From a virus: DNA of 38,216 nt. Position numbers and translations under genes: made by a program. Of this stretch, positions 3,186-36,400 are shown one piece after another (the stretch's first letter is position 1; each line of letters starts with the position of its first letter). The stretch is from positions 1 to 38,216 of the IMG/VR virus record IMGVR_UViG_3300024346_005423; one strand, 5' to 3'. The notes under the pieces were generated by a model. That model was given only the letters and a program-made list of their open reading frames with translations, had not been told where the DNA came from and ran no database searches.

Positions 3186-3239
3186 TTAAATACTTATTGA
3201 AAAAATATCCATTCATAGTTTTTGTATGATGTTTTCAAT

Positions 3240-7258: not shown

Positions 7259-7268
7259 TAATGATTTT

Positions 7269-14897: not shown

Positions 14898-17800
14898 TTA
14901 ATTTATATCCGTTCTTAAGAATTCTGCACCATCTGTATATGCAATCTGTAACGGGTCACCCTCAGTGTAGTTATAGATTCCGGGTATTGGATTCCAAACA
15001 GTGTCATACAATACACTTGACATTTTATTTGTGGGCATTATACCAAATACTTCTGTAAAGGTTGGATTGTAAACCTGTACTCCCGTACCATTTACACCTC
15101 TTGTTAATTGAGATAATGTATTAGCTGCTAAATCACATTCACCAAACCCAATCTGTTCGCCGTTAATATAAATTAGACGGCCTTCAACTGAAGTAATGGT
15201 CAATTCATTCCCCACAGAAACTTGAGCAGAAATCTGTAATATTGGTGCAGTATCAATGATAACTATATTGTAATTTGAAGGATTGACTAAGGTTGAAGTA
15301 GTATTGTTGTAAACAATAACAAGACTAATTGCGTTCTTATTAGCAGTTAATCCAATATCATATGTCCCGTTAACTTGAACTGGACATATAACATTTTGTA
15401 CTATATTGTCAGTTACTCTTGACAAATCGTTCAGATAAATAATCTCATCAGTATTTTGCAATGGTTCTGTTAACCATGTTCTAGTCTCTACATTGGATCT
15501 GAATACCGTAGAATTGCCTTGCAGTGACACATTCAACAAATATACTTGCTCATTTGGAGTTGCCGTTGGCATCATACTTGTAATAATAACTTCATCCCCA
15601 GATACAATAGTAGTTAATATGCTCAACTTATTGTATGGATTTAATTTCAAGTTTTTTGAAGGTACACGGTAACCGTTAACAGTTACCCACAATCTATCCA
15701 CATTTACTTGTTGGAATAGTGAAACATTAATTGCTCCGGAATCATTTGATAATACAAATTCAGATTCATTTGGATATCTATTTTCAGAAATAGTAAATGA
15801 TAATGTGTCAGGTTGTACAGCTAATACAAAGTATTCAGTTTTTTCTTCAATCCCACCTAGAATATCAGTTCCAGCAGGTGAATCATCTAACGTGAAATAA
15901 ACAGGAGTTCCGGGAGTTAAATTAGTAGTACTATCAACTGTAATTTTATTTCCAGTTGAACTTGTAGCAGTTGCTATAGTGTCTGCTACCGTAAACAATT
16001 GATTTAGCCAAACAAAACCACCAGATATATATGTTGAACAAAACGGTACTGGATAATTTTGAGCACCCGGAGTAGAATCATACGGAGCAGTATATAAATC
16101 AATTATTCTAGTTGTTATTATGTTAGCATAATAAGTATTGTTATTTAACTGTGTAGAACCAAGTATATCGTCAATACGAACTATTGCATTTTGTGTTAAG
16201 TTTGTATCTATACCAGTAGTAACTCTTACTACAGGATCACCGCCCACAGTAACTATGGTTATAGCTACAATATTTGCTACAGTCACTCCGGTAATATTAT
16301 ATTGGCTGCTTAAATATTGACGATCAGTTAAGTTATATGAAGTTACAGCAATAACTGACCCATTACTAGGAGCAACATCAAATACTATTGTATTAGTATC
16401 GGTACTGATAGTATAAGCTGAACTTGTTTGTCTTATACCATCAATTTCAACTATAGCATTTAGTGGATTGTTGTCACCTATATAGTTAGTCAATACGAAT
16501 GAGACTGTTGAACCATTGCCAGTGAATAACTGAGTTTGTGGTATTGTATAACCATATTGTATTGGTAATGTTTCTCCAAACAATGTAAAATTCAAATAAT
16601 CAACTGATGCATCATATGAGGTTAATATTGTAGGATTTTCTGGATCGTATTTTCCTGCAAAAACAAGTTTAGCAAAAGTACTATTACTTATAATACCAAT
16701 AGCATAATCTTTACTTATAAAACTTGCACCGCCGATGCTATCGGTTAAAACAACAACTGATCCACCGGGACTAGTTGAAATAGTAAATTCAGTACCATTT
16801 ATAATTGTTTTAACATAATAAATTCTATGCGGGACAATGATACCACCAAACATAGTATCGCTAAACACTATTTGATCATTTGTTGCTAAGCCGGTAGTAG
16901 TGAGACATGTAATTGCATTGTTACTTGCCTTAGTGCGTGTTATTGGTTTTGTTGTTCCTAACACCAGGTTAGTACCATTGTAAATTGTTAATGGTAAAGT
17001 CCATGTAGCCCCATATTCATATTGAATTTTCACTTGCATTGACCCTGATGCAGTACTCAACTGAAAAGTAGGACCTGCTATACCATTTGGCGCAGTAAGT
17101 GAAATAGTTATTTGATTTGTAACTAAACTTATAGTTTTAACATAGTAAATAATATCTACTACCACCCCTCCAAACACTGTTCCTTGAAAATATATTGGAC
17201 CATTTAATACAAACTCAGTAACATTATCACAAGTGATACTATCTACTGATGAATTAGTTGATGTAGCTATTACTGTATCAGGTGGAGTAGCTGGTCTAAT
17301 CAAACCTGACCCCTGAGATATATCTGCTCTATAACTTGCATCTACATATATTTCATTAAATCCTGTAACACTATTGGTTCTTATAGGAGAATTTTCGGTA
17401 TCTGTTTTTACTAATTGATAACCGTTGCCCACTTCATATACGTCAATTCTTAAACTATCAGAGATTCCCTCAGACACAAAATAAGACAAAGGATCATTTA
17501 ATATTACTACTTTATTAATCCAATCAATTGTAAAATCAATGCCGTCGTAAATGGTATTACTCAATTCAGTTGAGTATGTAATAACAAAAACACTCAACTG
17601 TGCAGGGGTTTGTACTAAATTAGCAAAACTATATTCAGTCTGTGCTCCTGAAGTTGGGAAAATTTCAGTTGATACTACGTTATATCCTACATTTTGATAT
17701 ATAGTTTCATCCCAGTTTGTTCCTGGACGAGTTCTGACTATCATTGATATTGTGTCGGATACTATCCCGGCTACTAATTCTTCTGGGCCATATCCATTAG

Positions 17801-20800
17801 TAAACGCATCACCTTGCACATCATATACACTGGGTAATAGATTAAAAGTATTTGTTAATGACCATGTTTCTGCATCCGGACTAGAAATTATTGTATTGTT
17901 TAAACCAACTGCCACATATTCACCGGCTGAAGTATTAACAACAACGCTTAGTAAATCATCAGTAACACTTGATGTTTGTATTTCCCAAGTTATACCAAAT
18001 ATATCAGATGTGAGAACAGCTCCGTTTTCACCTACTACAACAAATAACTCGCTAATAGCGTCCCATATGATATGATTTAAATCATCTGCCACGCCCGAAG
18101 ATTGGACGAACCAAACATTGATATCAGAAATACTTGTATAAATTATACCATTGTCTCCGACTGCTACAATTTCTTGTTCGTTGTATGCTACACTGTTAAA
18201 TCCAAACGAAGTATCGTAAAACGGAACTTGTGTCCATGTTATACCATCTGAACTTTTATAAATTATTCCAAAGTTAGTAGCAATACTACTTATTACTTGT
18301 TGACTAAACCCTACTGCTATGTAACCAGTATATCCAGCAGAAACAACATAAGTTACATCATTTAATACATTAGTTAACCCGGTAGTAAACGCAAAACGCT
18401 CAGTCCAAGTTATTCCATCAGTTGATGTAACAATGTTATCTCCCACTGCAACAAACATCCCACTATGATATGTCACTGAATTTAATGATGTTGCTGGGAC
18501 TGTTTTAGCTGACCAGTTAAATCCATCAATACTTAATAAAATAGGAGTAGCTTGATTATTTGTTGTGATTAAGTATTTTCCACCGGCATACAACATGTTT
18601 GAGATGCCGATTGGATAAGCAGATATTTTGTTTATCTCCCAGTCGTCTCCGGTTGTACTTGCATTTATAGCAGTATAAGTTGAAGTATCTGATCCGGTCA
18701 AATAAGTTAATCCGTTCCAAACAATAGCTTTTAAATCAATGCCGACTGGATAGAATGGTTGATCTATTAAAATAGTATCAAGGGCAAACTCGTCGGCTGG
18801 TGCAAATGCATTACCCATATAAGTACTATTAGGATATGTTATTCCCGAAACCAATTGAGTTAAGTCTACCCCGGGCATATTAATTGTAGGTTCGTAGTAA
18901 CCAATGATTCTATCTAGGGCATTTAATCTATTGTCACCGGAGCTTAATACCTCCCACTTACCAAATACAAATTCTAAATCGTTGTTACTGATAACACATT
19001 GATACAATTGTTTATTGAATTTTACAATACTTGGATTGAAGAAAAACGGTTCAGGTAATAACGCATAATCACCTGATTTAGCCATATTCATTGTTCCGGT
19101 TGCATCAGCTAATATATCAAATACTGAACCGTCTATTGTTTCAGAAATAGTCACAGTAGTTACTGTTGGTTTGCTTTTAACATAGTAGGTAAACCCTGCC
19201 GTTAATCCACCAAACACAGTTGATATAACTGTTCCAGTACCTGAAGAAGTTTGAGTAGCAACAAATACTTGACCTACAGTATTAGTTACTGCACCGGCTA
19301 AGGTAAAATTGCTTGTACCTAATGTTAATATCTGATAAGTTTGTCCGGCTTCAATAGAAGTAGCATTAATTATTGCTGTAAATTCTACTGCATCATTGAT
19401 ATTAAAATCATTTGAACTTGCTACAGTTATTCGGTTGGTTGATTCAGTTACACCTGTCACAGTTGTTGATGTTATTCCAATGAACGGGAAGTTTTGACCA
19501 GTAACTGCCGCTGTTAGTTCAGGATTTGAGTATAACTCAATTTGATTTTCAGAATAAACTTTAACATAGTATTGTTGATTATCTCCTACAGGAGTTCCTG
19601 TACCTATTCCGGTTAGGACTCCGCCGGTTGAATTTATAGTCAATACTTGATATGACAAATCATTTGTTATAGTTGTTCCGCCAACATCTGTACCTAAAAT
19701 AGTTATAATATTATTAACTGCATATCCACTTCCTAAAATTTCAGGAACTGTGATGTAACCACCTAAAGTATAACTTACATTAAATGTTGGTGTAGTACCT
19801 ACTACTTGTGTTAATGTCACCGGTCCAAGTTGAGTTGATAAGCTATTGCTTACTGTAATGTAGGTTTCTCCAGTACCGGTCATTGTTCCAGTACTGGTAG
19901 TAACAGTGACCGCGGAAAGGCTATCAATTGCAGATGCAATTTTAAATCTACCTGTGTTAACTGGTGGACTACCATCAATACTAAAAACATAGTATACTGT
20001 GTTCAATGATATTCCACCCAATGATGTACCGGTGAATACTATTGGCATACCAACATACAAGATAGCAGTTGTGTTGGGGTTAGAAGCTACCGGCAAAGTC
20101 AACCAATTCCCTGTTGCATTAGTATTAGTTACTGTAACTAAAGTAACACCATTGTCTATAATAGTATATGGCCCACCTGCTGTTGTTAGTCCACCTATGT
20201 TACTAGCAACATTAAAATCCATATCATCATAGATATTAGTAATACCACCACTTGCTGCTGATAAACAAATTCTATTTACTGATGTTAAAGTTGAAGTAAT
20301 TTCTCTGGTTAATAAGTTAGAAACAGTCCCTGATACACCAACATATGGACCACCTGAAACATAGAATGTTAATGCTTGGCCGTTGATTTGACCCGGACTG
20401 ACAGGTAATCCAACATTAAGTGTCATTAATCCTGTCCCGGTAGTTAACTGTAATGCATCTGCTTGACTTGTCAATACGCAAGTAGAATCAACTAATGGAA
20501 TTGAATAATTTGATAGAGAAACAGCCGAGCCATTTATACTAAGAGAAATAGAGAATGTTGTATTTCCACCAAACAATTCTCTTATATAGTATAATTGTCC
20601 AGCGACTATCCCACCAAACACACCTCCGGTGAATATGATTGGTTCATTTACCCTCAAATCTAGTGTACTCTCACACGTAATAGAATTATTAGCAGAAGAA
20701 GTTGCAGAAATATAAAATAGTGTTGGATCACTATTAGTTGACATAGTGAATGTTTTATTATCAATTACAGTTATTACATAATAAATTTCGTTTTCTATAA

Positions 20801-23800
20801 CTCCACCAAACACATCCCCTACCAAGAATACAGGAAGTCCAACGTAGAAACCAGTTGTACCGTTTAGTCCTGTAGGGGATAATTGTACAGTAACAAAATT
20901 AGTAGTTACTGCGGTATTAGTAACTGATCTTATTCCACTGTAATTTAAAGTCATTACTGCTACGTTAGTGAGTTCACCAACATACAATGTTAGTCCGGCT
21001 AGTGATATGGTTGCTGTATTTTGTGCAAAAACTGCGCCTGGGTTACCGTTTACATCAATTGAAGCAGAAAGTGTAAACCCGGTATTTTCTAATAGAGTCG
21101 CAGTACCTGTGCCACCGGCTGTAGATTTTGATATAATAACATCTCCCGCTGCATAAGTTATGCTTATTGTATCAGCTACGCTATTCCAATTAGTTGTGCC
21201 TAATACAGTAATTACATAATTATATCCTATACTAAGGGCAGAAGAAGATGTACTAGTTGCAGTTGGTAACTGTACTAGTGATTTTACATAATAGATGGTT
21301 TCATCAACTAGGGTAGTTCCTGTAACAGAGCCTATAAATTTAACTGGCATTCCTATATAGAAACCAATTGTAGAACCAATGCTACCTGCTACCGGTGCTC
21401 CACCTTCACTAGGAATAATTCTTATTGCATTTTGATAAGCAGTAGTAGAATATCCAGAACCATAAGTTTGAACAGTAGCTCTAGTTCTAGATGACCAAGT
21501 CAATGTTTGTTGATTTTCTGCATCTACAATTTCAAAACTTGAACCCGTTACACTAGCTGAAACAGAATTTATTGGGGGTTGTGTACTACTTAATAAAATA
21601 GATGATGATGATGCTGATGATATTTGATTACTAGTATTCAAGTCTCCTGCATATGATGCTCCATAGAAGTTACCTGAAGCCCAAGGAATAATTTGAGAGT
21701 TATAAGTAGTTCTATCAAATTTAATTGATATGATATTTTCTCTTGTAGGAGTTGAACTTGGTACGCAGCTAGCAATTGCACCAAGACTAAAATTTTGAAT
21801 TCCTGAACCAGAATCAACCAATTCAATTCTGCCGTGATCTGCTAATGCTGCTTGATATGTATTGTAAAGAGCAAAGATTGGAACAGGTGCTATTTCTAAC
21901 AAGTTTATATAATATTTTTGATTAGGTATTAGACCTTGAATTCCTGAAGACCCTGCAGGAATAGTGTATACTATCAAATCTCCTGTCTGCAATGCCAAAG
22001 TATTTATTTGAATAGTATTGAACATACTACTTACATTAGAACTATCAACAGAAACAGTAAATGATGGCTCAATATTAATTTCAGGAAGAACTGCATATCC
22101 TTCTCCCGGATTGATGACATTGACTCCGATAACACTTCCTAAACTCATTATTGGGACAAACTGTGCTTCTACTCTTGGTGGCGGATACAATGATAAGTCA
22201 ATGTATACTGTAATTTTTGGAGGGTTTGTATATGCTTTTCCTGCATAAAGTACTAATACAGCAGGTAAGTCAGTGTAAATTTTTTCTCCGGGTAAGTGTA
22301 TAGTAATGGTTGTGCTATCTACTCCGCGTGAAATTCCAGTTAATTGATTAGTTGCTATATTTCTACCTACATAGCTTATTTTTTCTTCACCAATCGTTAT
22401 TACACCAGTTACCGGGAAACCATTTATATTAGAAACATATAATATAGTTGAATTCAAACTCATGTAAGATTCTAATAAAGCTATTGGATAATTAGTTTGT
22501 CCGGAAATATTCAATCCATAATTATTAAACCATTGACTATACGCATTAGTTTGCCATATTGGGGCAGTGTATAAATATTCATTATCTCCATCGGCTGATG
22601 AATATACTAACGCAGGCGTTATAAATTGTTGTATATCAGACTGATATTGTGCAGGTAAATCAAAGTCAGTAATATCCCCTTCAAATATATCAGTTCTAGT
22701 ATATTTGAAAATAAATTCTTTAATTACCACATGATATGGTTTTACTTCATCCAAATACCCTTCTAAGAACAGTTGGTTGTCAGTGCGAAAAACTTGTAAC
22801 GGTACTAATTCACGTATAGTATGTGATACATCTAAGAATGATGTTTTGTTTAACCAGGTCAAGTAATTTTGACTTTCAATTGTTTCACTTTGAATGTATT
22901 CAAACAACAAAATCAAACTTTTATTTCTGAAAATCAATAATTCATTAGTATAAATTTGTTCATTTAACGCACGAATTATATAACGAGTTTCAGTTGATGG
23001 ATATGAATCATATGGTGTAGTATCAAAGAAACTATCACCAAACCCCAATCTACCTTCAGCGTAATCCCACAAGGTAGATTTAAATTCAATAGTACCGTTT
23101 GTAAGTCCAATTCTAACCCAAACTCCCTCATTGCTTAAAATATAAGTCTCACTATTACTGTTACCATTTAATGCTACTGTAACAATAGTTCCTGATGCAA
23201 CACTTAATGTTGATAAGTCAGCGTATATTGGCACTTGCAATGCGGATTTAGTATTATTACTATAGCCAGGTGCCCACCAGTTTACATAATTCCAATAATC
23301 TGTAGTGTTGAAAAATTCACCTGTCTCAGACAAAAATGTAGCATTTCTCAATTCAGTAATAGGGAATTGTGACAATATAATATTAGCATATTGTAAATAA
23401 TTTTTTAATGCACCAAATCTATCGTAGAAGAAACCTTGTCTAGGTCTTGCTAATACACCAGTTTGCACTGCTTTTGGTAATAACGGATCAGGTACAACTC
23501 CACCTGCATTATCTACACCGCACATACTGTCTAGCATTCTGTTATATAAACCAATTGGTTCTGTTATTCCTACTGATGCATGATTTTGATATGCTGCACC
23601 AGAACCAGGAAAACCTGATAAGAAATCATCTGCATAATTTGCACGTATAAGACTATACTGAGAATGTGCTACATCGTCATTTGATCCAGTGGCATATCCA
23701 ATATGCAACACCGTATCTTTTGCATTTATATACTCAAAGCAATTATATAAACCAAACACGTTTGACAATAATGGCGCAAAGAAACTAATGCCAGATGACG

Positions 23801-26800
23801 CAGGCTGGGTAATATAAAATTCTAACGTAGAATCAGCTAAGGTCTTTCCTATTTTTTCAAATATAATATTTGTGTTTCTTGCCCAGAAATAATATACGGG
23901 TGTTATTAAGCCTTCAGCGTTAATCACTCCACTAGTTGTATAGTTATCAATACTATACGGGGTACCTGGACCTTGATATAAACTAGGAGGAACGTTACTT
24001 ACTATCCATGAATAAACAGCAACATTGCTACCCGGAAATAGTCTACCCCAATATTGACTATTATAGGTTATATCATTCTGGTGATAGTTCATAAAGCGAG
24101 AATTACTAGTATTAAACCATAACTGCCCAATTTTATCTGTGCCCCAAATTAACCCACCTTGCGTATATGATACACTGTTATAAGAAGCAGGATCAGCGTT
24201 TGAAACTACATCAATATTTTCTGCAACTGCACCTAACAATTTACCTTGCAATGGATCAATATAATCCAAGTTTTGTACTGTGTTATTAGTAGAAGCACTA
24301 AACAATTGAATGTTAAATACCCCATTGATATCTACTATTTCAGACGAACTTCTAAATACTGCCCAATCTGGTTCAGATATTGCACTATTGTATACCACTA
24401 CTTGCCCAATATAATCAGTTCCTAAATTGAAGTTTGGTGTACCAACTACTACTGTGTTATCGTTAAAATCTAATGCTGTTCCATAATATGGTTGTGAACC
24501 ATAGTCTAAATCTTGTGCGTTAATATTTTGTGCATAGACAAATTTGCCCGGAGTATTCAAGTCCTCATTATATGCAGCCACGTAATCAAACATATAAACT
24601 GCACCAGCATTAGTAAATGTATCAACCCATTGTGTTGCATTATTGTCAAATACGGTATCATTATCTAATTCATCATCTGTAAAGTCAAATGTAGTACCTG
24701 AAAAACGTGTGCCAGCTGGGGCACTAATTACAATAGACCCAGACGAGTTGTTGAGTTTTATCATAGAACCAAATTGAGTTCTACCAGCCAAGTGCGGACA
24801 ATATATCTTCTGTGTGGGCGTATACAATGTTACACCCATCTCACTCAACGTATTACTGTTTAACACAGTCAATGAAAGTTTGTTTCCGGCAACACTTAAA
24901 TTTGTATCAATTAATGATATTATTAATTTACCATTCAAATCAGATGCATAGATGTTAGTTATTGCTAGAAAGTTAATACTAGCTGCTACTGTAGCAGCAT
25001 CACCTGCAGGAAGTACAGCTTTAAACCCGTTTAACAATACGGTTCTTGGAGTAGTTATATTGCAATCTTCTATACCAATGATAGTGCCATATTTTTCGCC
25101 GCCATTTGTATATCTATGCACTGCACCTTCATAATTTTCTGCACTTAACTCAAATGGAGCACCTACTAGAATTTCATTTGCAAATTTATTAGTTTCTACA
25201 CTTGTTCCAAATTGTACACCTATTCTAGCAGTCTCGTTGTTAGTTAGTGTTTGAGTCAATACAAAATTTATACTGCTTACATTTAAAATATCCCCTGCAT
25301 TCAAAGTAGGTGAAGCGCCACTGTAAATGTTTAGTGTAGACCCTATTACACTATAATAGCTATCTTCCATAGCAGTTCCATTGTTTGAAACAAACAACGG
25401 TGATGTTTGACCATTTGCGGTCATTGTTCCAGAACTATTAGTTAGTGCAAGAGTAGTACCGTCTCTGGTCAATGACAAAGTTATTGTTGAACCTGAAATA
25501 AGTTTTACATAATACACTGTGTTAGCGGCTATTCCGCCATATGGAGTACCTGTAAATACAATAGGTGTTCCTTCAGCCCCACCAATTAGTCCTAATATAC
25601 TACCTAATGTAATTGCATTACTTGATATTGAATTAGCGGTTGTAGTTAACGCAGTAGGAGTCCATGCTAATTGAAATTGTAATGGAATATATGCCTGACT
25701 AGTAGATTGTGCTTCAAAATTCTGTATAGTTCTACCAAATACATATGTATAACCGTAATTCGCAGTGTTAATATCATAGTCTTGCTGCGGTGTTCCAATT
25801 ACAATAGTATCTCCGTAATAATCAGTTGAGATTGAGTAACCAAACGAATCTGCTGATATTACTCCTGCTACTGATAATGTTAATGCAGTGCCGTCGAGGT
25901 TTTTAACCTGAACATATAATGTAGTAGCAGGAGATCTACGATAAACATATACTTTAGCATTATCAGTATCAGAAATGTATAACCAATTTTTATCTCCTGA
26001 CATGGCAGTAGACCTGCCCCAATTAGTTACTCCTGTCGGAGCTGCTATAGTTTGATACAAATCTAAACTATTTTGAAGTTGCGTTATTACTAATTGGTAA
26101 ATGTAAACCTTCTTGTCACCGGTTGGTTCTGATATCACAAACAAATCATCAATGTATGATATCTCTGATCCAAAAGATGCACCCTTAGTAATAGTTTGAA
26201 GTATAGAATATGAATTAGTTTCTGGGTAATATCTATAACGATAAACTTCACCAGAAATACTATCACCAATTAAAAATCCTAAATTAGTTGTAAAAGCCAC
26301 TGCGCTACCAAAGTAGTTGCTACCTACATTTTCTATTTGTTTGGTATATTGATAGTTTATGCTCTTGCGATAAACTGCCCAGTCTCCATCATTATTTGTA
26401 TCTACCCAAACTTTTAATTTATTAAATTCATTATCTAATAACGGTAGATTAATAATTTCAGGTGCTGTTACTACACGATAGGATTGCATTCTAAATCCAA
26501 TCCCCAATCCAGCAATATTTGTTAGTTGTGGATTCAATACCGTGTTAATGATAACATTAAATGAGTCTACTACCAGTGCTACAACATAGTAATTGTCAAT
26601 ATTAACATTAAAGTTGGCAATTGCAAAAATTTGATATCTTGTTAAGTTATGTGGGTATCTAAAGGTAATAGTTACTGTACCATTTAAATTATTCTTGGCA
26701 TTAATTACTGGTCCCAAACTAGCAGGAGAGTACACTTGCCAATCTGCCATATAGTTTGCTAACCAAACATAATCACGAACATAGAATTCACTAATAGGTA

Positions 26801-29800
26801 TAATTGTTCCGGCAGCGTTTTGTGCCCTGCCTAATCCAGAATAGTAATAACTAGCCATTTTAACGTCATTAAAGTTTACATAGCCTGCGGTAGGATATAA
26901 TGTAGATGGTTGGGTATATGATAGCGTTTGTAAAACATTTGGTGATGTGATTGGTCTACCGTAATTGAAAACGTTGGATAATGGAACTTCTTGTTGCACC
27001 CCGGTGTTGGTTATAATACCATTTGTCAACCCTACAATAGAAGGATTACCAGTTAAATCAGGTTGACTTAACCTGAATTCAATAAAGTTGTTATTTAATA
27101 CCCCGCCAAACTCACCGGATTGTATAGCCCAATTTTCATATAATTCATAATCAATACCACCTTGTGGTAAACTAGCACCCTTGAAAGCACTAGCTGCATT
27201 TAATGTACCTTTATCTTTGATTAAATTTTGATATATGTTGACTTGAGTTATGTCAGTAAAATCAGCTAACGCCATGTAAGAACGTGGGCGATAACCAATC
27301 AAACTGAAACTTAACAAGTCAGCATCATTTTCTAAATTAGCGGTGTTTACATCATAATACAATGTACTTTCGTATGAACGAGTTTGACTGTTAGGTAATA
27401 AACCTTTTTGTATTTCATCATATGAGGTTACTACCCAATCTCGTTCATTGAAAATTGCAGCAGCTTGTATTATTCTTAACGCTGACCAGTACCGATTCTT
27501 ATATTTTACAATAGAACCTTGGGTATATTTTATTTCGGTACTCCACTCTTGGATATTATCTTGGTTAAGTATAAAACCAAACGCATCTATTTTTCCATCC
27601 CACTCAGCAGTTTTTGTGCCACGCACCGTAATACGATTTTGTCGTAGACCAGTGACTAAATTATAGATTATATCATTGAATAATGTTACATTATCAAATA
27701 CAATGCCATTTTCAACATTGCTTATATTAAGTTGACTATAAGCAACGGTATCACCTTGATTTAATGGTTTAGCTGAGAATAAAGTACCTTCACGTATTAT
27801 CTCCATATCGGTTAATGATATTGGATATAGATTTTGATTCAACACAAAGTTTGATTTTTGTATTGTCAATGGTTGTACAATTTGACTTTCTTTGTCAATT
27901 GAAAGTATATTAGCTGAAGGGTTAATAGTAGTAATACTTCCTAAGCCCCAACCGGTTTGTACCCAATATAAAAATTCTGCAACCATTTGTTGCCATGTAA
28001 TAGGTATACCATTTTCAATTTGTTCAAAAATAACGCCCTGACTAGTTAAATATTCACCGTAACTTACTAAGAATTGTGATACTTGTTCTGGGTTGTAAAA
28101 TTCAGTACCGTAGGGTATTATTGTTACATCATCAGAAAATTGAGTGGTAGTAACTACTGTTAATTTTTCTACTTTAGTTTCTTGAAAGCGGCCGCCGGCA
28201 ATAGGAGTGGCTATTTTAAAATACGCATTTGTCTGCGAGTTGCCGTATACTTTGTAACTGAATGCATTAGAAGTTATATTGGGTTTAGATATTTGAATTA
28301 TTACACTACTATAAACAATTCTATCAAACGGTTGATTTTCATACAACAATAAGTTGTAGCTTTCGTCAGGAATCAGCAATGAACTGTTATTGCTATTAGC
28401 TGAACTTTTTTCTACATAAAATTGTAATAAATTTTTATCGCTAAATCCTGCCATGCGATATACTAAACGAACATCTAAATTATTCAATAAGGTTGTAATG
28501 TTAGTTGTTGCATCAACCCCAACTTGTTTTTCGTAATCAATTATCCAATTGATATAGCTAGTTGCAGGTGTACCTAAACCATAGATAGGTATATCAGTTA
28601 TTGATAAATGAGTTCTATTATTTACTAGATATTGATTAAATTCTAAATTGTATTTGTAGTGATCTACATCTACCCCCAAATTAAAGAAGTCGGCTGGTTT
28701 TGTTAACGCTAATATACGCATCCAATCAAACGGCCAAGTACTACTTCTACGATAACTAAATTCAGTTGGGCCAACATCTCCTATTTTCCAATCACGCTGA
28801 AATAAATTTTGATTGTAGTTACCTACAATTGACTCAAACGGAGCTATTAAATCACCGTTACTATTTACTGGTATTATATCTAGTAATCCATCACGAATAT
28901 ATTTAGGTCTTACAAAAGGTTCTCCATTATTCCAAACTACACCGGCAGCTAAATCTCCCCAAAGAACTAAGTTTTCACTTGTGTATGGTGCAGCACCATA
29001 CCTAATTTCCCACCAAGTTGGCTTATTAGTAAAACCAATCATTTCCCACGGGGTTTCGTCAGGAGTAGAAGTATCGTAAAAATACAAATATGTACCTCTA
29101 AAATAACCTTGCTCAATAGCAGCCCTGTCTAGTTTGTTTCCACTATTTCGGTAGTTTAAACTATATTGATTGGTTTTATTAAATAATTGTGTTTTATAGT
29201 CAATTCTGTTTTGACCCACCCAATTTAAAAATGATTCACTATATATTTGTAAAAACTCATCATAGTTATAATCTGTATTTCTAAAGAAACCAGGAATAAC
29301 TAAACCTTCATATGAACCAGCAGGAACCGTTTCGCTTAATTTCAAATTGTTATATACCCGAGTTTCGTACTCAAGTAATACTTGGTCTCTGAAATCAGAT
29401 AAGGTATTTGTTGTAGAGTTATATTCTCCGTATAGCTTGTTGAAAGAACCGTCATGCCCAACAATAAAATAAGTAGGGGTAGAGTATGCAGTATCTAAAG
29501 TTACGTTAGGTATTGTTGCAGGATATAATCCTAACTTTGTAGGAGTGTTTGGAACATAACTACCATATGTTTGATTATATTCGTTGACAGTAATCTGGTC
29601 ATTTGGTATTAAGTCAGTTGTTATAGTCAACACCGGTGAGTCTGAACTTACCGTGTAGTCCACTCCTGAAATTAATTGAGTTTGAACTCCGGAACGAGTT
29701 AGATAAACTAACACCCCGTAATAGTTTGCAGTAGCAAAAGTATAAATTCTGCTTAATGGATATCTACTGGTATCAAGTGAGTTTGCAAAAGAATATGTAT

Positions 29801-32800
29801 TTGAAATATACGGTGCCTTAGATGGCAACATATCACTCCAAAAGAATGATTGACTATCAGTATATGATGCATTGATTTGGTCTAGTGCAGTATCAAGCAT
29901 AACTGCAGGATATAACCTAGTAGTAAAATCAGTATTATCAATAGTATTAACTAATAAATTTTTAAAGTTAATGTATTGTCTGCTGTTATATAACAATGCA
30001 TTAAACAAATCATGTGACTGATTGTGTAAGAATGTGCTGGGTAAAACTAATGATGCACTGTTCTGAATAATTCGGCTACCCCATGGTACTAAGTTTCCTA
30101 AATTATGATAGTTGTTTGATCCAAACACTTCACCAAGTGTATAAGGATTATTGTAAAAAATACTTTGATATTGTCCTCGTATATCACCTATATTAACCGA
30201 TGTTATATCTTCATTAAATGGATTGTTATTTAAATTAATAGGAGTTTGATAATATGCAGTAGAACTAACTTGGTCGCTAATTATTAACACTTGAATTACA
30301 GTATTAACTAATGGTAATTCTAATAATTCTATTGTAGTTGTATCACTAGTTGTAGTGAAATTATACAATGCGGTAGGTAAATAATTATTGTTAATATAAA
30401 CTTGTACCGTTGGCCAATTAGTAGATGTTGAACTTACCGGAGCAATGTCGCAAGTGAAAATATTAATATTTTCTAAAACATTAAAATCAAAATTAAATAT
30501 TTGATATTGTACACTTGGTGATACTGCTGTCTGCCAACCTAACTGTTTAACTACAGTGTCAACACTGGTGTTATTATACACATAACCTATATTAACCTTT
30601 TCATTAATTGAGGTAGTTCCTTCAACATAATTAAATGTTTGATTATTCAAAGTTATATCAAAACTTATATCTCCTAGATTATCAACTGAATTATAGCGTA
30701 ACGGGAATCCTAAAATAATATCATTACTTCCGGTACCAATTCCATATGAGAACAAAGTACAACCAGTAAATGATGTGCTTACATATACAGTGTTATCACC
30801 TAAACTTACGCCATTATAATCAAACAAATCAAATTTAGGTGCTTGTTGAAGTTGAGTTTTTTGTTGACTTTCTATCCAATCTTCCCCGTCAAAATAAAAA
30901 TCATTACCTGTATAATTGTATCCTCGATAAACAGCAGTTTGCTCGTTTGGTAATACTAGTCCGTCGTCTGCTTCAGTTAATGTTATAATAGGGGTAGTGT
31001 CATTTACAATAGTAGAAAATCTTGAAATGTATATTTTATTTCTAACACTTAGATTTGTGTCCGCAGCAAACACGATCCGTGCGCCATCAAACAACGAATA
31101 ATTATCTAAAGGAGTATCAGCGGTAACTAGCGATGCCACTGATGTGCCAAGAACAGTAGTTGGGCTATACCAAGATACAGTTAATACTGTATCCGGGCCT
31201 ACTACATTAACATCAGTTACGCTGGTAATTGTTGGTAATACTCCGGTTGAATCTGTAATATATTGTCCATTTTTAAATAACCCAAATACGCTTGTAGTGG
31301 GTATAGTAATGTAGGTGCTGAACAAAGTTATAACCGTAGTCATAGTCCCCGATGCAGTTGTCAACACCAGAGGTGTACCTTGAAATAATTCAGATATTAC
31401 AATATTATTTCCTTCAATATTGTTAATATAATAAGGTTTATTTGCTTGTATGTTTCCAAACACTGAACCTGTAAAGGTAATAGTGTCGTTGATATGTAAG
31501 TCGTCTGTAGTAGAAAGAACAACTTGATTTACTAACGCTAGTGTTTGAGTAGCTGTTATAGTTGTAATGTTTGCTGTTACCGGGGCAATAACAGCATCAT
31601 AACCAGTCCAACCTGCTACATCAGGATAATAACTAGTTTGTCCTGCCACATATGTAAATGCATCGGTAGTTCTAGTATCAATAAAATCAATTAGATTTTT
31701 ACCCACAATACCTGAATTAAACAACCGAAGATTAGGATAAAATTCAATAATTGGTCTTCTTGCTTTATTAGCCGGTGCAGTGTAAAGAGTTAGTAACTCT
31801 GGATTATTGTTGTATTCAGCAGTTGCGGTAATAACGTCAATATGAAACCAGCGATTACCGCGTGACCACGGATTTCTACTGATTGAATTTCTAGCTATAG
31901 TAATGTAATCCGGTGTTACTGGGAGATATAAACTACTATCATAGTTTCCAATATCATACGGTACGGTATCGAATGGTGTGAATTCACCTGCAGTAAACGT
32001 TTCGGGAGATACCAACGAAGTAACAGCAATAAGTTCAATTGCTGTACCAACACCTTCTACGTAATATTCAGTATTAATATATGTAGTAGGGATTACATTA
32101 CCTTGAAATATTACTTTCAATCCATTGGTAAATACTACTCCTGTAGGTGAAGTATAGTTTACTTTACCTAAAATACTATCAACATCAAGTACATTAGAAG
32201 CGGTATCTTCAGCTAGATTGATGATCCCTACTTTATTAGGATTAGTTCCATCTTGATAATATAGTATATCTACAATTGCACTGTTAAATGGTATCAAGGA
32301 AATTTCACCTGCGCCACTTCTATAGAATGCGTTGTTTATCCACTCATTACCGTAATTTGCAGTTATTCTCTCGTTGGTAGGAATTACAGACGAAGGGGCG
32401 GGGGTAAGTTGTATCTCCGGATTGTCTAGTGATCCTAATAGTGAGATAATATAAAAAGTTGCATTTACTTGATTACCGTCTGGATCAATTTCATTAGGAA
32501 CTCCAGTATTGTAAAACATAACTGTCAACCCTTCAAGTGCAGTTACACCATCTATACCACCTATATCATTTACTAATGCCTCGTTTACCTGACTAAAAGG
32601 TAATGTAGATATTACGTCAACACGATTGTTGCCGGGAAAATTATACTCATCTAGTGCATTTTTTTGCGGAACAGTAAATGTTACAACTCCTTGAGTTATT
32701 CCGTTGTTGGTTACCCCATATACATTTCTAGTTTGTATATTTTCTACATTGTACCCAGTAACTCCAGGAACACCTTGAATCCAAAACTGAGTAGTTTGGT

Positions 32801-33383
32801 CCACCGTGAAAGTGTAAGTTCCTCCTCTTAATAGAGTTAGTGATGGATTTTCAATAGGGGTAGGATTGTTAGCTGAAGAAAATAAATAGAACGAATTAGT
32901 TGATTGAACTAGGTAGTCTGCTGTATTGTATTCAATGGAAGAAGAAACCGTAACGCTACTGGGACCTGCTGGCAACCAGTAATACTGATTGAAGTTAATA
33001 ATTGTATCTAGATTAGTAAATGAATCCCAAGAATAGAATTCACTATTAAAAAGTCTATTGTTATTGTTTGTTATTCCACCTTGTAATTTTAAGGCATCAA
33101 TTATACCCGGATAACTGATAAAATCTTTTGCAGTAGTATCATTTTCTTTTAAGAAAACAACACCTGGATCTAATTGATAATCAGTTCTAGTTTTTGTAGG
33201 TTCAGTAACATAGTAGTCTTTAGCATTAACACCATATCCAAATCTACTACCTATATATCCTTGTATCTTTTGAGTATTTGGTTGAGCAACCAGTTGGTCT
33301 AATGTAGCAGCCAAAAATTGACTGTTGGAAGCTGTTTTAAATATCTCTGGAAGAAAATTTAATGTTCTAATTCTTGTGGCCAT
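14898..33383 (-). CDS. Giant tail/baseplate-associated protein (6161 aa)
   Basis: A single uninterrupted frame of 18.5 kb in the place T4 uses for gp7, right after gp6. T4 gp7 has about 1030 residues, so this is about six times longer. Residues 1-170 (RIRTLNFLPEIF, TLDQLVAQP, LFNSEFYSWDSF, NFNQYYWLPAGP) form a module I associate with large structural proteins of aquatic T4-like phages. Residues 1100-2150 contain Trp/Tyr-rich globular parts, including a chitin-binding-like segment near 1938-1977. An FG-GAP-type propeller follows at about 2350-3010. A segment near 3500-3550 reads LTWLNKTSFLDVSHTIRELV and YLDEVKPYHVVIKEF, again tail-like. Then come many short 'GGI..NT.YYV' modules, an Asp-box-type propeller at about 4885-5180, a GNGSTVSFVL adhesin-like domain, and a C-terminal INGEQIGFGE/LTRGVNGT module. 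There is no signal peptide or coiled coil. It is probably a long baseplate-attached side structure or host-contact protein; an exact gp7 equivalence is inference. Confidence 0.85.
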   Translation of the reverse strand: MATRIRTLNFLPEIFKTASNSQFLAATLDQLVAQPNTQKIQGYIGSRFGYGVNAKDYYVTEPTKTRTDYQLDPGVVFLKENDTTAKDFISYPGIIDALKLQGGITNNNNRLFNSEFYSWDSFTNLDTIINFNQYYWLPAGPSSVTVSSSIEYNTADYLVQSTNSFYLFSSANNPTPIENPSLTLLRGGTYTFTVDQTTQFWIQGVPGVTGYNVENIQTRNVYGVTNNGITQGVVTFTVPQKNALDEYNFPGNNRVDVISTLPFSQVNEALVNDIGGIDGVTALEGLTVMFYNTGVPNEIDPDGNQVNATFYIISLLGSLDNPEIQLTPAPSSVIPTNERITANYGNEWINNAFYRSGAGEISLIPFNSAIVDILYYQDGTNPNKVGIINLAEDTASNVLDVDSILGKVNYTSPTGVVFTNGLKVIFQGNVIPTTYINTEYYVEGVGTAIELIAVTSLVSPETFTAGEFTPFDTVPYDIGNYDSSLYLPVTPDYITIARNSISRNPWSRGNRWFHIDVITATAEYNNNPELLTLYTAPANKARRPIIEFYPNLRLFNSGIVGKNLIDFIDTRTTDAFTYVAGQTSYYPDVAGWTGYDAVIAPVTANITTITATQTLALVNQVVLSTTDDLHINDTITFTGSVFGNIQANKPYYINNIEGNNIVISELFQGTPLVLTTASGTMTTVITLFSTYITIPTTSVFGLFKNGQYITDSTGVLPTITSVTDVNVVGPDTVLTVSWYSPTTVLGTSVASLVTADTPLDNYSLFDGARIVFAADTNLSVRNKIYISRFSTIVNDTTPIITLTEADDGLVLPNEQTAVYRGYNYTGNDFYFDGEDWIESQQKTQLQQAPKFDLFDYNGVSLGDNTVYVSTSFTGCTLFSYGIGTGSNDIILGFPLRYNSVDNLGDISFDITLNNQTFNYVEGTTSINEKVNIGYVYNNTSVDTVVKQLGWQTAVSPSVQYQIFNFDFNVLENINIFTCDIAPVSSTSTNWPTVQVYINNNYLPTALYNFTTTSDTTTIELLELPLVNTVIQVLIISDQVSSTAYYQTPINLNNNPFNEDITSVNIGDIRGQYQSIFYNNPYTLGEVFGSNNYHNLGNLVPWGSRIIQNSASLVLPSTFLHNQSHDLFNALLYNSRQYINFKNLLVNTIDNTDFTTRLYPAVMLDTALDQINASYTDSQSFFWSDMLPSKAPYISNTYSFANSLDTSRYPLSRIYTFATANYYGVLVYLTRSGVQTQLISGVDYTVSSDSPVLTITTDLIPNDQITVNEYNQTYGSYVPNTPTKLGLYPATIPNVTLDTAYSTPTYFIVGHDGSFNKLYGEYNSTTNTLSDFRDQVLLEYETRVYNNLKLSETVPAGSYEGLVIPGFFRNTDYNYDEFLQIYSESFLNWVGQNRIDYKTQLFNKTNQYSLNYRNSGNKLDRAAIEQGYFRGTYLYFYDTSTPDETPWEMIGFTNKPTWWEIRYGAAPYTSENLVLWGDLAAGVVWNNGEPFVRPKYIRDGLLDIIPVNSNGDLIAPFESIVGNYNQNLFQRDWKIGDVGPTEFSYRRSSTWPFDWMRILALTKPADFFNLGVDVDHYKYNLEFNQYLVNNRTHLSITDIPIYGLGTPATSYINWIIDYEKQVGVDATTNITTLLNNLDVRLVYRMAGFSDKNLLQFYVEKSSANSNNSSLLIPDESYNLLLYENQPFDRIVYSSVIIQISKPNITSNAFSYKVYGNSQTNAYFKIATPIAGGRFQETKVEKLTVVTTTQFSDDVTIIPYGTEFYNPEQVSQFLVSYGEYLTSQGVIFEQIENGIPITWQQMVAEFLYWVQTGWGLGSITTINPSANILSIDKESQIVQPLTIQKSNFVLNQNLYPISLTDMEIIREGTLFSAKPLNQGDTVAYSQLNISNVENGIVFDNVTLFNDIIYNLVTGLRQNRITVRGTKTAEWDGKIDAFGFILNQDNIQEWSTEIKYTQGSIVKYKNRYWSALRIIQAAAIFNERDWVVTSYDEIQKGLLPNSQTRSYESTLYYDVNTANLENDADLLSFSLIGYRPRSYMALADFTDITQVNIYQNLIKDKGTLNAASAFKGASLPQGGIDYELYENWAIQSGEFGGVLNNNFIEFRLSQPDLTGNPSIVGLTNGIITNTGVQQEVPLSNVFNYGRPITSPNVLQTLSYTQPSTLYPTAGYVNFNDVKMASYYYSGLGRAQNAAGTIIPISEFYVRDYVWLANYMADWQVYSPASLGPVINAKNNLNGTVTITFRYPHNLTRYQIFAIANFNVNIDNYYVVALVVDSFNVIINTVLNPQLTNIAGLGIGFRMQSYRVVTAPEIINLPLLDNEFNKLKVWVDTNNDGDWAVYRKSINYQYTKQIENVGSNYFGSAVAFTTNLGFLIGDSISGEVYRYRYYPETNSYSILQTITKGASFGSEISYIDDLFVISEPTGDKKVYIYQLVITQLQNSLDLYQTIAAPTGVTNWGRSTAMSGDKNWLYISDTDNAKVYVYRRSPATTLYVQVKNLDGTALTLSVAGVISADSFGYSISTDYYGDTIVIGTPQQDYDINTANYGYTYVFGRTIQNFEAQSTSQAYIPLQFQLAWTPTALTTTANSISSNAITLGSILGLIGGAEGTPIVFTGTPYGGIAANTVYYVKLISGSTITLSLTRDGTTLALTNSSGTMTANGQTSPLFVSNNGTAMEDSYYSVIGSTLNIYSGASPTLNAGDILNVSSINFVLTQTLTNNETARIGVQFGTSVETNKFANEILVGAPFELSAENYEGAVHRYTNGGEKYGTIIGIEDCNITTPRTVLLNGFKAVLPAGDAATVAASINFLAITNIYASDLNGKLIISLIDTNLSVAGNKLSLTVLNSNTLSEMGVTLYTPTQKIYCPHLAGRTQFGSMIKLNNSSGSIVISAPAGTRFSGTTFDFTDDELDNDTVFDNNATQWVDTFTNAGAVYMFDYVAAYNEDLNTPGKFVYAQNINAQDLDYGSQPYYGTALDFNDNTVVVGTPNFNLGTDYIGQVVVYNSAISEPDWAVFRSSSEIVDINGVFNIQLFSASTNNTVQNLDYIDPLQGKLLGAVAENIDVVSNADPASYNSVSYTQGGLIWGTDKIGQLWFNTSNSRFMNYHQNDITYNSQYWGRLFPGSNVAVYSWIVSNVPPSLYQGPGTPYSIDNYTTSGVINAEGLITPVYYFWARNTNIIFEKIGKTLADSTLEFYITQPASSGISFFAPLLSNVFGLYNCFEYINAKDTVLHIGYATGSNDDVAHSQYSLIRANYADDFLSGFPGSGAAYQNHASVGITEPIGLYNRMLDSMCGVDNAGGVVPDPLLPKAVQTGVLARPRQGFFYDRFGALKNYLQYANIILSQFPITELRNATFLSETGEFFNTTDYWNYVNWWAPGYSNNTKSALQVPIYADLSTLSVASGTIVTVALNGNSNSETYILSNEGVWVRIGLTNGTIEFKSTLWDYAEGRLGFGDSFFDTTPYDSYPSTETRYIIRALNEQIYTNELLIFRNKSLILLFEYIQSETIESQNYLTWLNKTSFLDVSHTIRELVPLQVFRTDNQLFLEGYLDEVKPYHVVIKEFIFKYTRTDIFEGDITDFDLPAQYQSDIQQFITPALVYSSADGDNEYLYTAPIWQTNAYSQWFNNYGLNISGQTNYPIALLESYMSLNSTILYVSNINGFPVTGVITIGEEKISYVGRNIATNQLTGISRGVDSTTITIHLPGEKIYTDLPAVLVLYAGKAYTNPPKITVYIDLSLYPPPRVEAQFVPIMSLGSVIGVNVINPGEGYAVLPEINIEPSFTVSVDSSNVSSMFNTIQINTLALQTGDLIVYTIPAGSSGIQGLIPNQKYYINLLEIAPVPIFALYNTYQAALADHGRIELVDSGSGIQNFSLGAIASCVPSSTPTRENIISIKFDRTTYNSQIIPWASGNFYGASYAGDLNTSNQISSASSSSILLSSTQPPINSVSASVTGSSFEIVDAENQQTLTWSSRTRATVQTYGSGYSTTAYQNAIRIIPSEGGAPVAGSIGSTIGFYIGMPVKFIGSVTGTTLVDETIYYVKSLVQLPTATSTSSSALSIGYNYVITVLGTTNWNSVADTISITYAAGDVIISKSTAGGTGTATLLENTGFTLSASIDVNGNPGAVFAQNTATISLAGLTLYVGELTNVAVMTLNYSGIRSVTNTAVTTNFVTVQLSPTGLNGTTGFYVGLPVFLVGDVFGGVIENEIYYVITVIDNKTFTMSTNSDPTLFYISATSSANNSITCESTLDLRVNEPIIFTGGVFGGIVAGQLYYIRELFGGNTTFSISLSINGSAVSLSNYSIPLVDSTCVLTSQADALQLTTGTGLMTLNVGLPVSPGQINGQALTFYVSGGPYVGVSGTVSNLLTREITSTLTSVNRICLSAASGGITNIYDDMDFNVASNIGGLTTAGGPYTIIDNGVTLVTVTNTNATGNWLTLPVASNPNTTAILYVGMPIVFTGTSLGGISLNTVYYVFSIDGSPPVNTGRFKIASAIDSLSAVTVTTSTGTMTGTGETYITVSNSLSTQLGPVTLTQVVGTTPTFNVSYTLGGYITVPEILGSGYAVNNIITILGTDVGGTTITNDLSYQVLTINSTGGVLTGIGTGTPVGDNQQYYVKVYSENQIELYSNPELTAAVTGQNFPFIGITSTTVTGVTESTNRITVASSNDFNINDAVEFTAIINATSIEAGQTYQILTLGTSNFTLAGAVTNTVGQVFVATQTSSGTGTVISTVFGGLTAGFTYYVKSKPTVTTVTISETIDGSVFDILADATGTMNMAKSGDYALLPEPFFFNPSIVKFNKQLYQCVISNNDLEFVFGKWEVLSSGDNRLNALDRIIGYYEPTINMPGVDLTQLVSGITYPNSTYMGNAFAPADEFALDTILIDQPFYPVGIDLKAIVWNGLTYLTGSDTSTYTAINASTTGDDWEINKISAYPIGISNMLYAGGKYLITTNNQATPILLSIDGFNWSAKTVPATSLNSVTYHSGMFVAVGDNIVTSTDGITWTERFAFTTGLTNVLNDVTYVVSAGYTGYIAVGFSQQVISSIATNFGIIYKSSDGITWTQVPFYDTSFGFNSVAYNEQEIVAVGDNGIIYTSISDINVWFVQSSGVADDLNHIIWDAISELFVVVGENGAVLTSDIFGITWEIQTSSVTDDLLSVVVNTSAGEYVAVGLNNTIISSPDAETWSLTNTFNLLPSVYDVQGDAFTNGYGPEELVAGIVSDTISMIVRTRPGTNWDETIYQNVGYNVVSTEIFPTSGAQTEYSFANLVQTPAQLSVFVITYSTELSNTIYDGIDFTIDWINKVVILNDPLSYFVSEGISDSLRIDVYEVGNGYQLVKTDTENSPIRTNSVTGFNEIYVDASYRADISQGSGLIRPATPPDTVIATSTNSSVDSITCDNVTEFVLNGPIYFQGTVFGGVVVDIIYYVKTISLVTNQITISLTAPNGIAGPTFQLSTASGSMQVKIQYEYGATWTLPLTIYNGTNLVLGTTKPITRTKASNNAITCLTTTGLATNDQIVFSDTMFGGIIVPHRIYYVKTIINGTEFTISTSPGGSVVVLTDSIGGASFISKDYAIGIISNSTFAKLVFAGKYDPENPTILTSYDASVDYLNFTLFGETLPIQYGYTIPQTQLFTGNGSTVSFVLTNYIGDNNPLNAIVEIDGIRQTSSAYTISTDTNTIVFDVAPSNGSVIAVTSYNLTDRQYLSSQYNITGVTVANIVAITIVTVGGDPVVRVTTGIDTNLTQNAIVRIDDILGSTQLNNNTYYANIITTRIIDLYTAPYDSTPGAQNYPVPFCSTYISGGFVWLNQLFTVADTIATATSSTGNKITVDSTTNLTPGTPVYFTLDDSPAGTDILGGIEEKTEYFVLAVQPDTLSFTISENRYPNESEFVLSNDSGAINVSLFQQVNVDRLWVTVNGYRVPSKNLKLNPYNKLSILTTIVSGDEVIITSMMPTATPNEQVYLLNVSLQGNSTVFRSNVETRTWLTEPLQNTDEIIYLNDLSRVTDNIVQNVICPVQVNGTYDIGLTANKNAISLVIVYNNTTSTLVNPSNYNIVIIDTAPILQISAQVSVGNELTITSVEGRLIYINGEQIGFGECDLAANTLSQLTRGVNGTGVQVYNPTFTEVFGIMPTNKMSSVLYDTVWNPIPGIYNYTEGDPLQIAYTDGAEFLRTDIN
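16805..21355 (-). repeat. Array of short 'GGI..NT.YYV' modules in the giant protein
   Basis: The unit reads (P/E)-(I/V)-x-F-x-G-x-x-F-G-G-(I/V)-x-x-x-x-x-Y-Y-(V/I), then a beta strand and a Gly-Thr-Met end. Clear copies lie at about 21281-21352, 20770-20840, 20585-20650, 19985-20050, 19165-19220, 17135-17200 and 16808-16878. Outliers occur near 25502-25568 and 31425-31490, with weaker forms near 21890-21990 and 15825-15910. Such repeats in phage tails are sometimes labelled FCCH-like by similarity to ubiquitin-activating enzyme domains; no ubiquitin link is implied. Confidence 0.75.
17845..18730 (-). other. Asp-box (BNR-like) beta-propeller inside the giant protein
   Basis: Codes for residues about 4885-5180. 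At least six blades carry the signature S-x-D-G-x-(T/N)-W or a close variant: STTGDDW, SIDGFNW, STDGITW, SSDGITW, DIFGITW and SPDAETW. Each follows a strand such as FVAVGDN, YIAVGFS, IVAVGDN, FVVVGEN or YVAVGLN. This is the blade pattern of sialidase/YCF48-like propellers. The catalytic residues of a sialidase are not evident, so binding rather than cleavage is more likely. Confidence 0.75.
24354..26336 (-). other. FG-GAP (integrin-like) beta-propeller inside the giant protein
   Basis: Codes for residues about 2350-3010. Blades start with FGSAVAF, FGSEISYI, WGRSTAMSG, FGYSISTDYYG, FGTSVETN, FGSMIKLN and YGTALDF, and continue to VIGTPQQDY, ILVGAPFEL, IVISAPAG or VVVGTPNF, then V-Y-x-Y/F strands. 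This is the FG-GAP repeat order. A short-module insert (PIVFTGTPYGGIAANTVYYV) sits within the propeller at about 25500-25570. Confidence 0.75.
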
Positions 33384-33404: not shown

Positions 33405-36400
33405 TTATGCTATTTGTAATTCGGCGGGTGTAAGAGCAGCTATCACAAGCACATCACTTGAGGTTGCTGCGTTTACAAATATTTCATACGGTAAACATTT
33501 AATTTCATATAAATCCCCAAATGCCATTGTGGGATCATTGGGCACTAACACACAAGAACTTACTAGTTCTCCTATTTCAGCATGAATATAAGCACTTAAC
33601 TCACTGAAATAAAACGTATCTCCAAAATTCCAATTATTAATATTAAAGTAGGTATTCATGGTTGACAAGACCAAGCTGCGAATCTCACTATCACTTGCAT
33701 TTGTTTTAGAATTTTTAATAACTTTAATAGTGCCCCTTAAAGCGGCTGCGGCTTTAGGACCAAATAAAGGTTTAAAAACTACACTGTTTAATATGGCACT
33801 ATCGGTTAACATTTTGTAATCTTGTATCTGACTATATGCAGTTGTTAACTCACTTATACTTGGACGAGTTGGCATTGGTACGGTATCGGTAACATCTTGT
33901 ATCCAATTTTGATATGCAGTATAATATGCTTGATTTACCACATATAAGTCAATGATGTTAGTTGTAGCCGGGTCTATGCGTGTGGTATTATTACTATTGT
34001 GACGATATTGAAATTGTAATCCTTGTCGCCCTGATTTTCTGCTATATTGTGGTTGTGCCACTAAATTATAAAATGGAATCAAAACAGTTGGGTCTTGTAC
34101 AGTAATAAAAAATATGTTATCTGAATAGGCATAGAATAGTTGACCTTCCGGGTATTCATATTTTACAATTTCAATTTGTGATTGAGTTGAATATTGATAT
34201 ATTACTTGAGTAGAAAAAATTAACTGCTTACGTGATAAATTGATAGCATCTTGTATTTCTTCAAAAAATACATATATGCCAATATTAGTATTACCAGTTA
34301 CATATCCCGTGATTTGGTTAAAGAAGTCTGGGTTATCTATGAGTGTTCTATCATTCACATTAATACTAGCAACTTCTACTTCAAAATCATCTATGTACCC
34401 GTCACTTTGAACAGTTTGTCCAATGATGCTAGCAGTAACTGGTTGACTTAAAGGATAATTACTACTAGGCTGTGTGTTTGTTGCTAACACTTTAACAAAG
34501 TCTTGTAATATAATACCAGAGAAAGGATCAAATACTAATTTACCTGCTTCAAACGTAAATCTAGTATCAGCGACACTACCAAAATAATATGCTAGTGAAC
34601 GATATGTTACTGTGTATCTGTTGTACCCAACACTTTGAAAATTAACAAAATAAGAACTAGTATTATATGGTTCTACACTCCAACGTGTTTGAGCAATAGT
34701 TAAACTATTATTGAAAACTAATGAGAAGTTTTGTTGTAAATCTAATCTAATAGTACATTCATCAGTAACTGACTTTGGTAAAGTATTACTAAAGGTAGGG
34801 ATAACGGTAGTCATAATTGCATCAGACGGCACAAATCCATTTAATGTTATTGGTCCGGTTCCGTTAGCAAACTGTCCTATTCCATTATTATATCCGTCAC
34901 CTATTACATTTAATACAGTAGTCCAAATGTATGTTACATCTGATGGGCTTGCGATTCCGCGGACTAACCTATTATTGTTGTCAAAGTAATATCCTGAGGG
35001 TGCAATAAATTTTAACAATGCACCTTTTGTAATATATTTTGTATTATTTGTTGAGTAAATACCAACTGATATGGGTGTGTCCACTGAATTTATTATGCTA
35101 TAAAAATAACCAGTATTACTGTTAGCATCAACTGTGCTAGTTTGCCAATACACTGCACTGGTAGAGGGATCACTAACTAATGTAAGATCAGTGGTTGATC
35201 CAATAGCATATCTAGAATAATTTTGAATATAATATTGTAGTGACCTATTATCCGACAAGATAGCAGCCAAAGTGCCAGTTAAGAAAGTGGTAATATCACT
35301 AAGGCTGTTTATAGTTAATAAAGCATTTCCAATAGTATCATCTAACCAAACTCCACCATCATTTGAATAACTATTAGTGCTACTATACTTACCTGTAGGA
35401 TCAAGTAAATCTAAGTTTTTACTTACACCTACACTACTACGATTAATTGCTTTACTCTTTATAATTGAACTGTATAGTGTGTAAGGAAAATTATTATAAT
35501 CTTGCCCATTGACCATACGATTTTGTGTATAGTAGCGGCTTGGTGCACGTTGTTTAATGTCAGCAAGTGATTCCCGAACCTGAGCAGTTGTTACAGGCAA
35601 TGGTAAAGATAAACCAATTGTCATTGTCTCAACTCTACCCACTCTACTTACATAGCTAATTGAAATGCTAAGTCCTTGTATTTCAGTAGGTTGAACAGTA
35701 TAAGTCAATGCATTACCCGCACGAACATATGCTCTAAAGTTTCCTACTGGAATCTCACTGAACACACCATCACCAAATATATAACTTACTTGGTCATTAA
35801 ATCTGCTATTAACTGAGTAAATTTCTCTTTCGCTATTCTCAGTTTGTAAATAAGCATCAGCATAAATGTTATCAACTTTGTTCCATAATCCAAATGCACC
35901 GTTAGCTTGACTTATTTGATACAACCAAATATCAGTATTATTGACCCCTTGAATATTACCAATATCAATTACTTGGTTTGATATTTGATTTTGCAATGTG
36001 AAATCAAAATTAGTTAATGATCCTTGTTTGAAATAGAAGAAAAAGCCGGTGTTTGGACTACCATAACCTAATTTGTCATTGCGATATAACATATTAAATC
36101 TGTTTGTAGGTGCAGGTGGTAATTCATAAACATAATCTTCACCTACTGTACTCACACTGCACAATTCAAAATTCATGTTTATTCCACTAACCGTAGCATT
36201 AAATGGTATTACAGGTAAGCTGCCTGCCGGTATTTGTAAAGTATATTCGTCGGTTTTTACACCAAGAATTTGTGCCGTGTTTGCAGGTAATCCAACTCGT
36301 TGTGTGTTAACCAAAGATGCATTAATAATGGTATTAAACTGTTCTAACCAACTGGCGTTTGCAGGGTCATTCCAAAGTATAGGTACATTACTTAAATTAA

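Follow-up and report, generated by a model that had tools for sequence, protein, structure and literature searches.

The window analyzed here, a 38,216-bp virus record that is probably a fragment, raises the question of what a single gene of 6,161 codons is doing directly behind gp6, the place taken in T4 by gp7 (1,032 aa). In contractile tails of the T4 type and of simpler types, the core of the baseplate wedge consists of one gp7-type and two gp6-type chains. We consider the best explanation, with a probability of about 0.65, to be that the giant serves as the gp7-type chain alongside gp6 in the wedge of a myovirus related to RaK2 and PA5oct. Direct support for this reading comes from the position of the gene, the conservation of this position and of the frame, its membership in a known family and the detection of the relatives' proteins in virions.

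Reading frame and genomic context

Read from its ATG, the giant gene contains a sole, terminal stop, and the other five frames across the same stretch have 323 to 713 stops each, with no open run longer than 125 aa. The GC content by codon position (41/41/21%) is gene-like. Compared with a relative found on a 263,709-bp contig (G001), dN/dS ranged from 0.10 to 0.34 along the whole length, with dS near saturation, and the frame appears to be under purifying selection from end to end. In this comparison, evolution is faster over the last 2,500 residues; the C terminus was matched in 28 of 29 long IMG/VR contigs. Complete homologous frames from 25 IMG/VR contigs measured 5,968 to 6,992 aa (median, 6,482 aa), and a single in-frame TGA was found in one further homologue (contig G013). 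The extreme length and this lone TGA might suggest an assembly or frame error that fused several genes, but judging from the relatives, with 25 other contigs open at this size and selection acting over the whole frame, this possibility is negligible and already refuted. The uninterrupted frame behind gp6 described in the original prediction was thus confirmed by its single terminal stop, by its openness in relatives and by purifying selection.

The position held equally well. In IMG/VR, 374 stretches encode relatives of the giant, and in the best 80 of them (49 to 70% identity) the end of gp6 lay 3 to 34 bp upstream of the giant homologue without exception (80/80); in the window the distance is 21 bp (Table 1). 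The giant gene is therefore conserved and not peculiar to this contig. The order in G001 is hub, gp25, gp6, giant (6,597 aa), the 206-aa gene and fibre-like genes, followed by apparent sugar-modifying genes.

Table 1. Features of the window and modules along the giant chain (residue numbers refer to the giant protein)
Feature	Positions	Strand	Remarks
Giant, putative wedge-type virion protein	14898..33383	-	6161 aa, PHROG 10938 family
gp6 baseplate wedge subunit, expected partner of the giant	33405..36803	-	PHROG 10646, E 1e-249
gp25-like sheath initiator	36951..37400	-	PHROG 43/261
206-aa protein	14111..14731	-	PHROG 11259
N-terminal module, residues 1-137 (FLPEIFKT...NFNQYYW)	32973..33383	-	Kept in all relatives; low confidence in model
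Cupredoxin-like (YHYH-type) beta domain, residues 151-392	32208..32933	-	AF2 model, structure alignment
Helix like first part of gp7 core, residues 1767-1808 (FL..YG.YL..QG)	27960..28085	-	hhalign; helix in model
Small CBM5/12 (chitin-binding type 3)-like module, residues 1940-1988	27420..27566	-	Inserted in the core region
gp7-core-like element, residues 1998-2077 (KGT at 2058-2060)	27153..27392	-	Top hhalign segment
FG-GAP-type beta-propeller region, residues ~2330-3000	24384..26396	-	FG-GAP_2, E 1.7e-6
Third conserved module, residues 2990-3620 (DEVKPYH...TDFDLP)	22524..24416	-	Conserved in the family
Second propeller-like region, residues ~4870-5190	17814..18776	-	Weakly supported; F510_1955, THOC3

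Relatives and counterparts at the gp7 position

The giant matched PHROG 10938 (E 6.5e-22 to 4.7e-110) in pieces spanning residues 8 to 3614. Searches with tblastn retrieved 57 phage records, the same number being obtained with the N-terminal module alone; they comprised RaK2-like, PA5oct-like and Atu_ph07-like jumbo phages, Vibrio 2.275 and Salicola SCTP-2. In the six records that we compared, the homologues were 3,326 to 4,449 aa long, and gp6 adjoined them in five (PA5oct, CBB, RaK2, Atu_ph07 and Vibrio 2.275), the exception being SCTP-2, where the gp6 match lies elsewhere in the record. A sister clade (G030 and G031) has homologues of 4,586 to 4,599 aa. Scans for more distant relatives with the Atu_ph07, RaK2 and SCTP-2 proteins as queries returned only the queries themselves or nothing. 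The jumbo-phage proteins show sequence kinship to residues 1-137, 400-570, 760-2120 and 3000-3600 of the giant, but they are shorter, and residues ~137-400, ~570-760, most of 2120-3000 (including the first propeller region; no BLAST alignment over ~2210-2990) and ~3620-6161 remained unaligned. Further repeat insertions are found at other sites in the relatives. PHROG 10938 is filed under head and packaging, a label that is probably wrong because the gene stands in the baseplate cluster behind gp6.

Virion proteomics in a relative, a check proposed along with the original prediction, already exists in published form. Virion mass spectrometry gave 21 peptides for the giant homologue CBB_236 of CBB (PMC5259590) and 17 for gp245 of phAPEC6, a 381.9-kDa protein adjoining the baseplate wedge protein gp244 (PMC7247149) and, from its mass and this location, presumably another homologue. 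The record of the PA5oct homologue carries the note ESI-MS/MS. From these relatives, we infer that the giant of the window is a virion protein. The passages of the jumbo-phage literature retrieved by term search contained no identification of the giant as gp7.

The size and position of the giant are not new because genes of 3,884 to 6,171 aa at the gp7 position are known in cyanophages. SSSM5_094 of S-SSM5 (6,171 aa) lies directly behind gp6, P-HM1 has a 4,446-aa gene annotated as gp7 with a separate gp8 behind it, P-SSM2 has a gp7-position protein of 5,195 aa, and the protein of S-CAM9 (3,884 aa) is annotated as baseplate wedge initiator. These proteins resemble the giant in their location directly behind gp6 and their comparable size, and their gp7 core is split by insertions, as the candidate core of the giant would be, but similarity to it was detected only in this candidate core element and in one short repeat, and hhalign of the giant's blocks to the gp7 of P-HM1 and P-SSM2 gave probabilities of at most 5.1%. 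A GxGY-type repeat occurs both in the giant (residues 3714-3796) and in SSSM5_094 (residues 441-520; E 0.001), proteins that are otherwise unrelated.

The core of T4 gp7 (residues ~644-826) has its homologue near the N terminus of the gp7-position proteins of Cr30, cyanophages and related phages (hhalign, 96.9%). Within these proteins the KGT motif stands at about residue 98 in Cr30, at 204, 205 and 220 among S-CAM9, HTVC008M and P-HM1, and at 701 in S-SSM5, the same core being split to an increasing degree by insertions in cyanophages and a pelagiphage. Pelagimyophages have been described as lacking gp7, with VrlC in its place (PMC7029224), a view at odds with the annotation of P-HM1 and with the cyanophage-type gp7-core match (96.9%).

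A candidate gp7 core and the surrounding modules

Whole-length profiles gave no link to gp7. The giant is six times longer than T4 gp7 and not significantly similar to it, either over the full length or by direct comparison with T4 profiles; when the three conserved blocks (N-terminal, middle and third) were each compared whole by hhalign with the gp7 of T4-like phages and cyanophages, no probability exceeded 6%. PHROG 964 (gp7) had no match in ten non-T4 records of the family, nor did Tail_P2_I (P2 gpI, Pfam) at an E value of 10 or lower in 14 records including the window. PDB sequence searches with the three block profiles gave no significant hit, and T4 gp7, gp8 and gp10 did not appear among the Foldseek and VIA-align matches listed, which in itself does not speak for their absence.

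A signal emerged when a core profile built from nine non-T4 phages was compared with 439 segments of 110 residues taken from regions conserved among the giant and its homologues. Residues ~1998-2077 ranked first (score 34.9, E 4.8e-5, probability 68%) against a scan mean of 13.5 (standard deviation, 4.8), and the top eleven of the 439 segments all fell at 1960-2130. The next independent region, residues ~1767-1808, was the best outside the KGT element (score 26.6, probability 18%) and is a helix in the AF2 model, where the KGT region itself is of low confidence. Both regions match successive parts of the core in the expected order, partly overlapping in the template, and 75 of 78 family sequences have KGT, the other three having KGS. 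A composite of the two pieces reached probabilities of 84 to 89% and scores of 41.5 to 44.1 against non-T4 gp7 cores and scored 31 to 35 against the pooled core (decoy maxima, 19.8 for 200 shuffled templates and 16.9 for reversed ones), although its helix partner was picked after the scan and earlier picks (the N terminus and residue 1345) scored nearly as high; the all-pairs partner scans covered 1,902 of 2,922 and 1,470 of 3,762 pairs. The contiguous block 1750-2110 reached only 41%, T4-like gp7 profiles alone gave the composite less than 4%, and a PHROG scan with the KGT segment alone retrieved its own family and otherwise chance-level matches. The N-terminal LPEIF helix, which would imply an insertion of ~1,950 residues, was rejected as the core helix, since its composite reached 52% and a wider scan gave equal or better partners.

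On the whole, the profiles are suggestive of a diverged gp7 core at residues ~1767-2077, with a core helix and a KG(T/I) element possibly common to T4 gp7 and the giant. The original prediction had placed tail-type modules at residues 1-170 and near 3500; these are conserved family-wide, but the best gp7-core match lies elsewhere.

As for the remaining modules, residues 151-392 aligned in the AF2 model to rusticyanin (VIA-align Z 10.0, rmsd 2.0 over 93 aa) and have BFVD structural neighbours named YHYH; alignment gaps indicate that this domain is missing from several jumbo relatives. Residues 1940-1988 had their best structural match in the Milano phage receptor-binding complex (VIA-align Z 7.7), with chitinase binding domains ranking below, and a Pfam CBM_5_12 match below the cut-off (E 0.008). 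Two different propellers had been predicted: the first was recovered as an FG-GAP_2 match exceeding the curated cut-off in an isolated piece of the giant, but the second gave only weak propeller-type matches (F510_1955, E 4e-5, far below cut-off; THOC3, E 0.0037).

Role in the baseplate wedge and neighboring genes

If the giant is the gp7-type chain, its diverged core would lie against the two gp6 chains of a (gp6)2-gp7 bundle, as the profiles lead us to expect. By analogy, the long segments flanking and interrupting this core (cupredoxin-like and chitin-binding-like domains, propellers and repeats) would project from the wedge, where the outer modules might brace the baseplate rim and make contact with fibres or the cell surface. 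The gp7 orthologue of Vibrio phage XM1, gp17, holds the spikes by a loop inserted in its core and by a C-terminal tail (PMC10457771). The giant, with its core held in the wedge and modules facing outward, is most likely a larger-scale version of this layout, a likeness by analogy; gp17 has only 242 aa. The gene would then have grown by modules inserted into or appended to gp7, and not by fusion of gp7 with gp8 to gp10.

The latter had been the original proposal, a single chain replacing gp7 to gp10, and it was not supported. The size of the chain fits it, as does the lack of a recognizable separate gp7 (PHROG 964) or gp8 in the ten non-T4 records, where the matches of PHROG 438 (gp8) were confined to repeats within the giant protein of Atu_ph07. 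In the window, as predicted, neither a gp8 nor a gp10 gene was recognized, but this says little because the window covers 38 kb and the relative G001 264 kb. Against replacement, hhalign gave probabilities below 1% for gp8 and gp9/gp10 in conserved residues 1-1187, 1270-2130 and 2990-3640, and weak T4_gp9_10_N matches, below the curated cut-off, fell on separate ORFs in three relatives (G001, G002 and G003), so that genes of their own may encode gp9/10-like docking domains there. In addition, P-HM1 retains its separate gp8 beside a giant gp7, and simple contractile phages of the XM1 type manage without a wedge set as elaborate as that of T4 (PMC10457771). We regard replacement as very improbable. 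Less remote, if still unlikely, is that the giant is a tail-fibre or adhesion protein that merely stands beside gp6 and has no role in the wedge core. Its propeller, chitin-binding-like and repeat modules do give it an adhesin-like composition, PHROG annotates it only as a virion structural protein, and its C-terminal part evolves faster. Against this reading stand the exceptionless gp6 adjacency in the best 80 of 374 loci, blocks that stay conserved across more than 2,000 residues even in very distantly related phages, the gp7-core-like element and profile searches that recognized no further gp7 candidate.

More tentatively, at somewhat less than even odds, the gp7 reading could be extended to two or more origins of a giant gp7, one among cyanophages and another in the RaK2/PA5oct/Atu_ph07 lineages, each through insertions accumulating at the same place of the wedge core domain, making the third wedge chain the main surface-contact scaffold; PHROG 10938 would then be the gp7 of the RaK2, PA5oct and Atu_ph07 phages. 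If the gp7 reading is right, it would give a function to a widespread family for which databases now offer only the labels virion structural or head and packaging, supply the missing gp7 of these three types of jumbo phages and point to one gp7 site where baseplates acquire new host-contact modules, which could be tested on cultured phages.

The 206-aa gene downstream was present in 26 of 29 long-contig records (81 to 97% identity) and near the giant in every jumbo phage compared, on the opposite strand in CBB and RaK2; its homologues were detected by MS in CBB and PA5oct. Profile comparison of the 206-aa protein with gp8, gp9, gp11 and gp53 gave no signal. Contigs sharing this protein at 81 to 97% had giant C termini that were mostly only 44 to 70% identical. 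Farther along, a fibre-like protein (12835-14079, minus strand) has a Peptidase_G2 self-cleavage domain (PF11962, just above cut-off), and G001 encodes a 2,796-aa collagen-repeat fibre (171361-179751) whose N terminus is weakly like the gp9/gp10 docking domain (E 2.3e-4, below cut-off). Behind the fibre genes, epimerase-, radical-SAM-, methyltransferase- and glycosyltransferase-like frames (3240-11824, minus strand) were recognized by eye from the sequences, as was a similar block at 76168-100639 in G001. Near the start of the window, a 133-aa protein (122-523, minus strand) combines a signal-peptide-like start with a glycine-rich zipper-like stretch.
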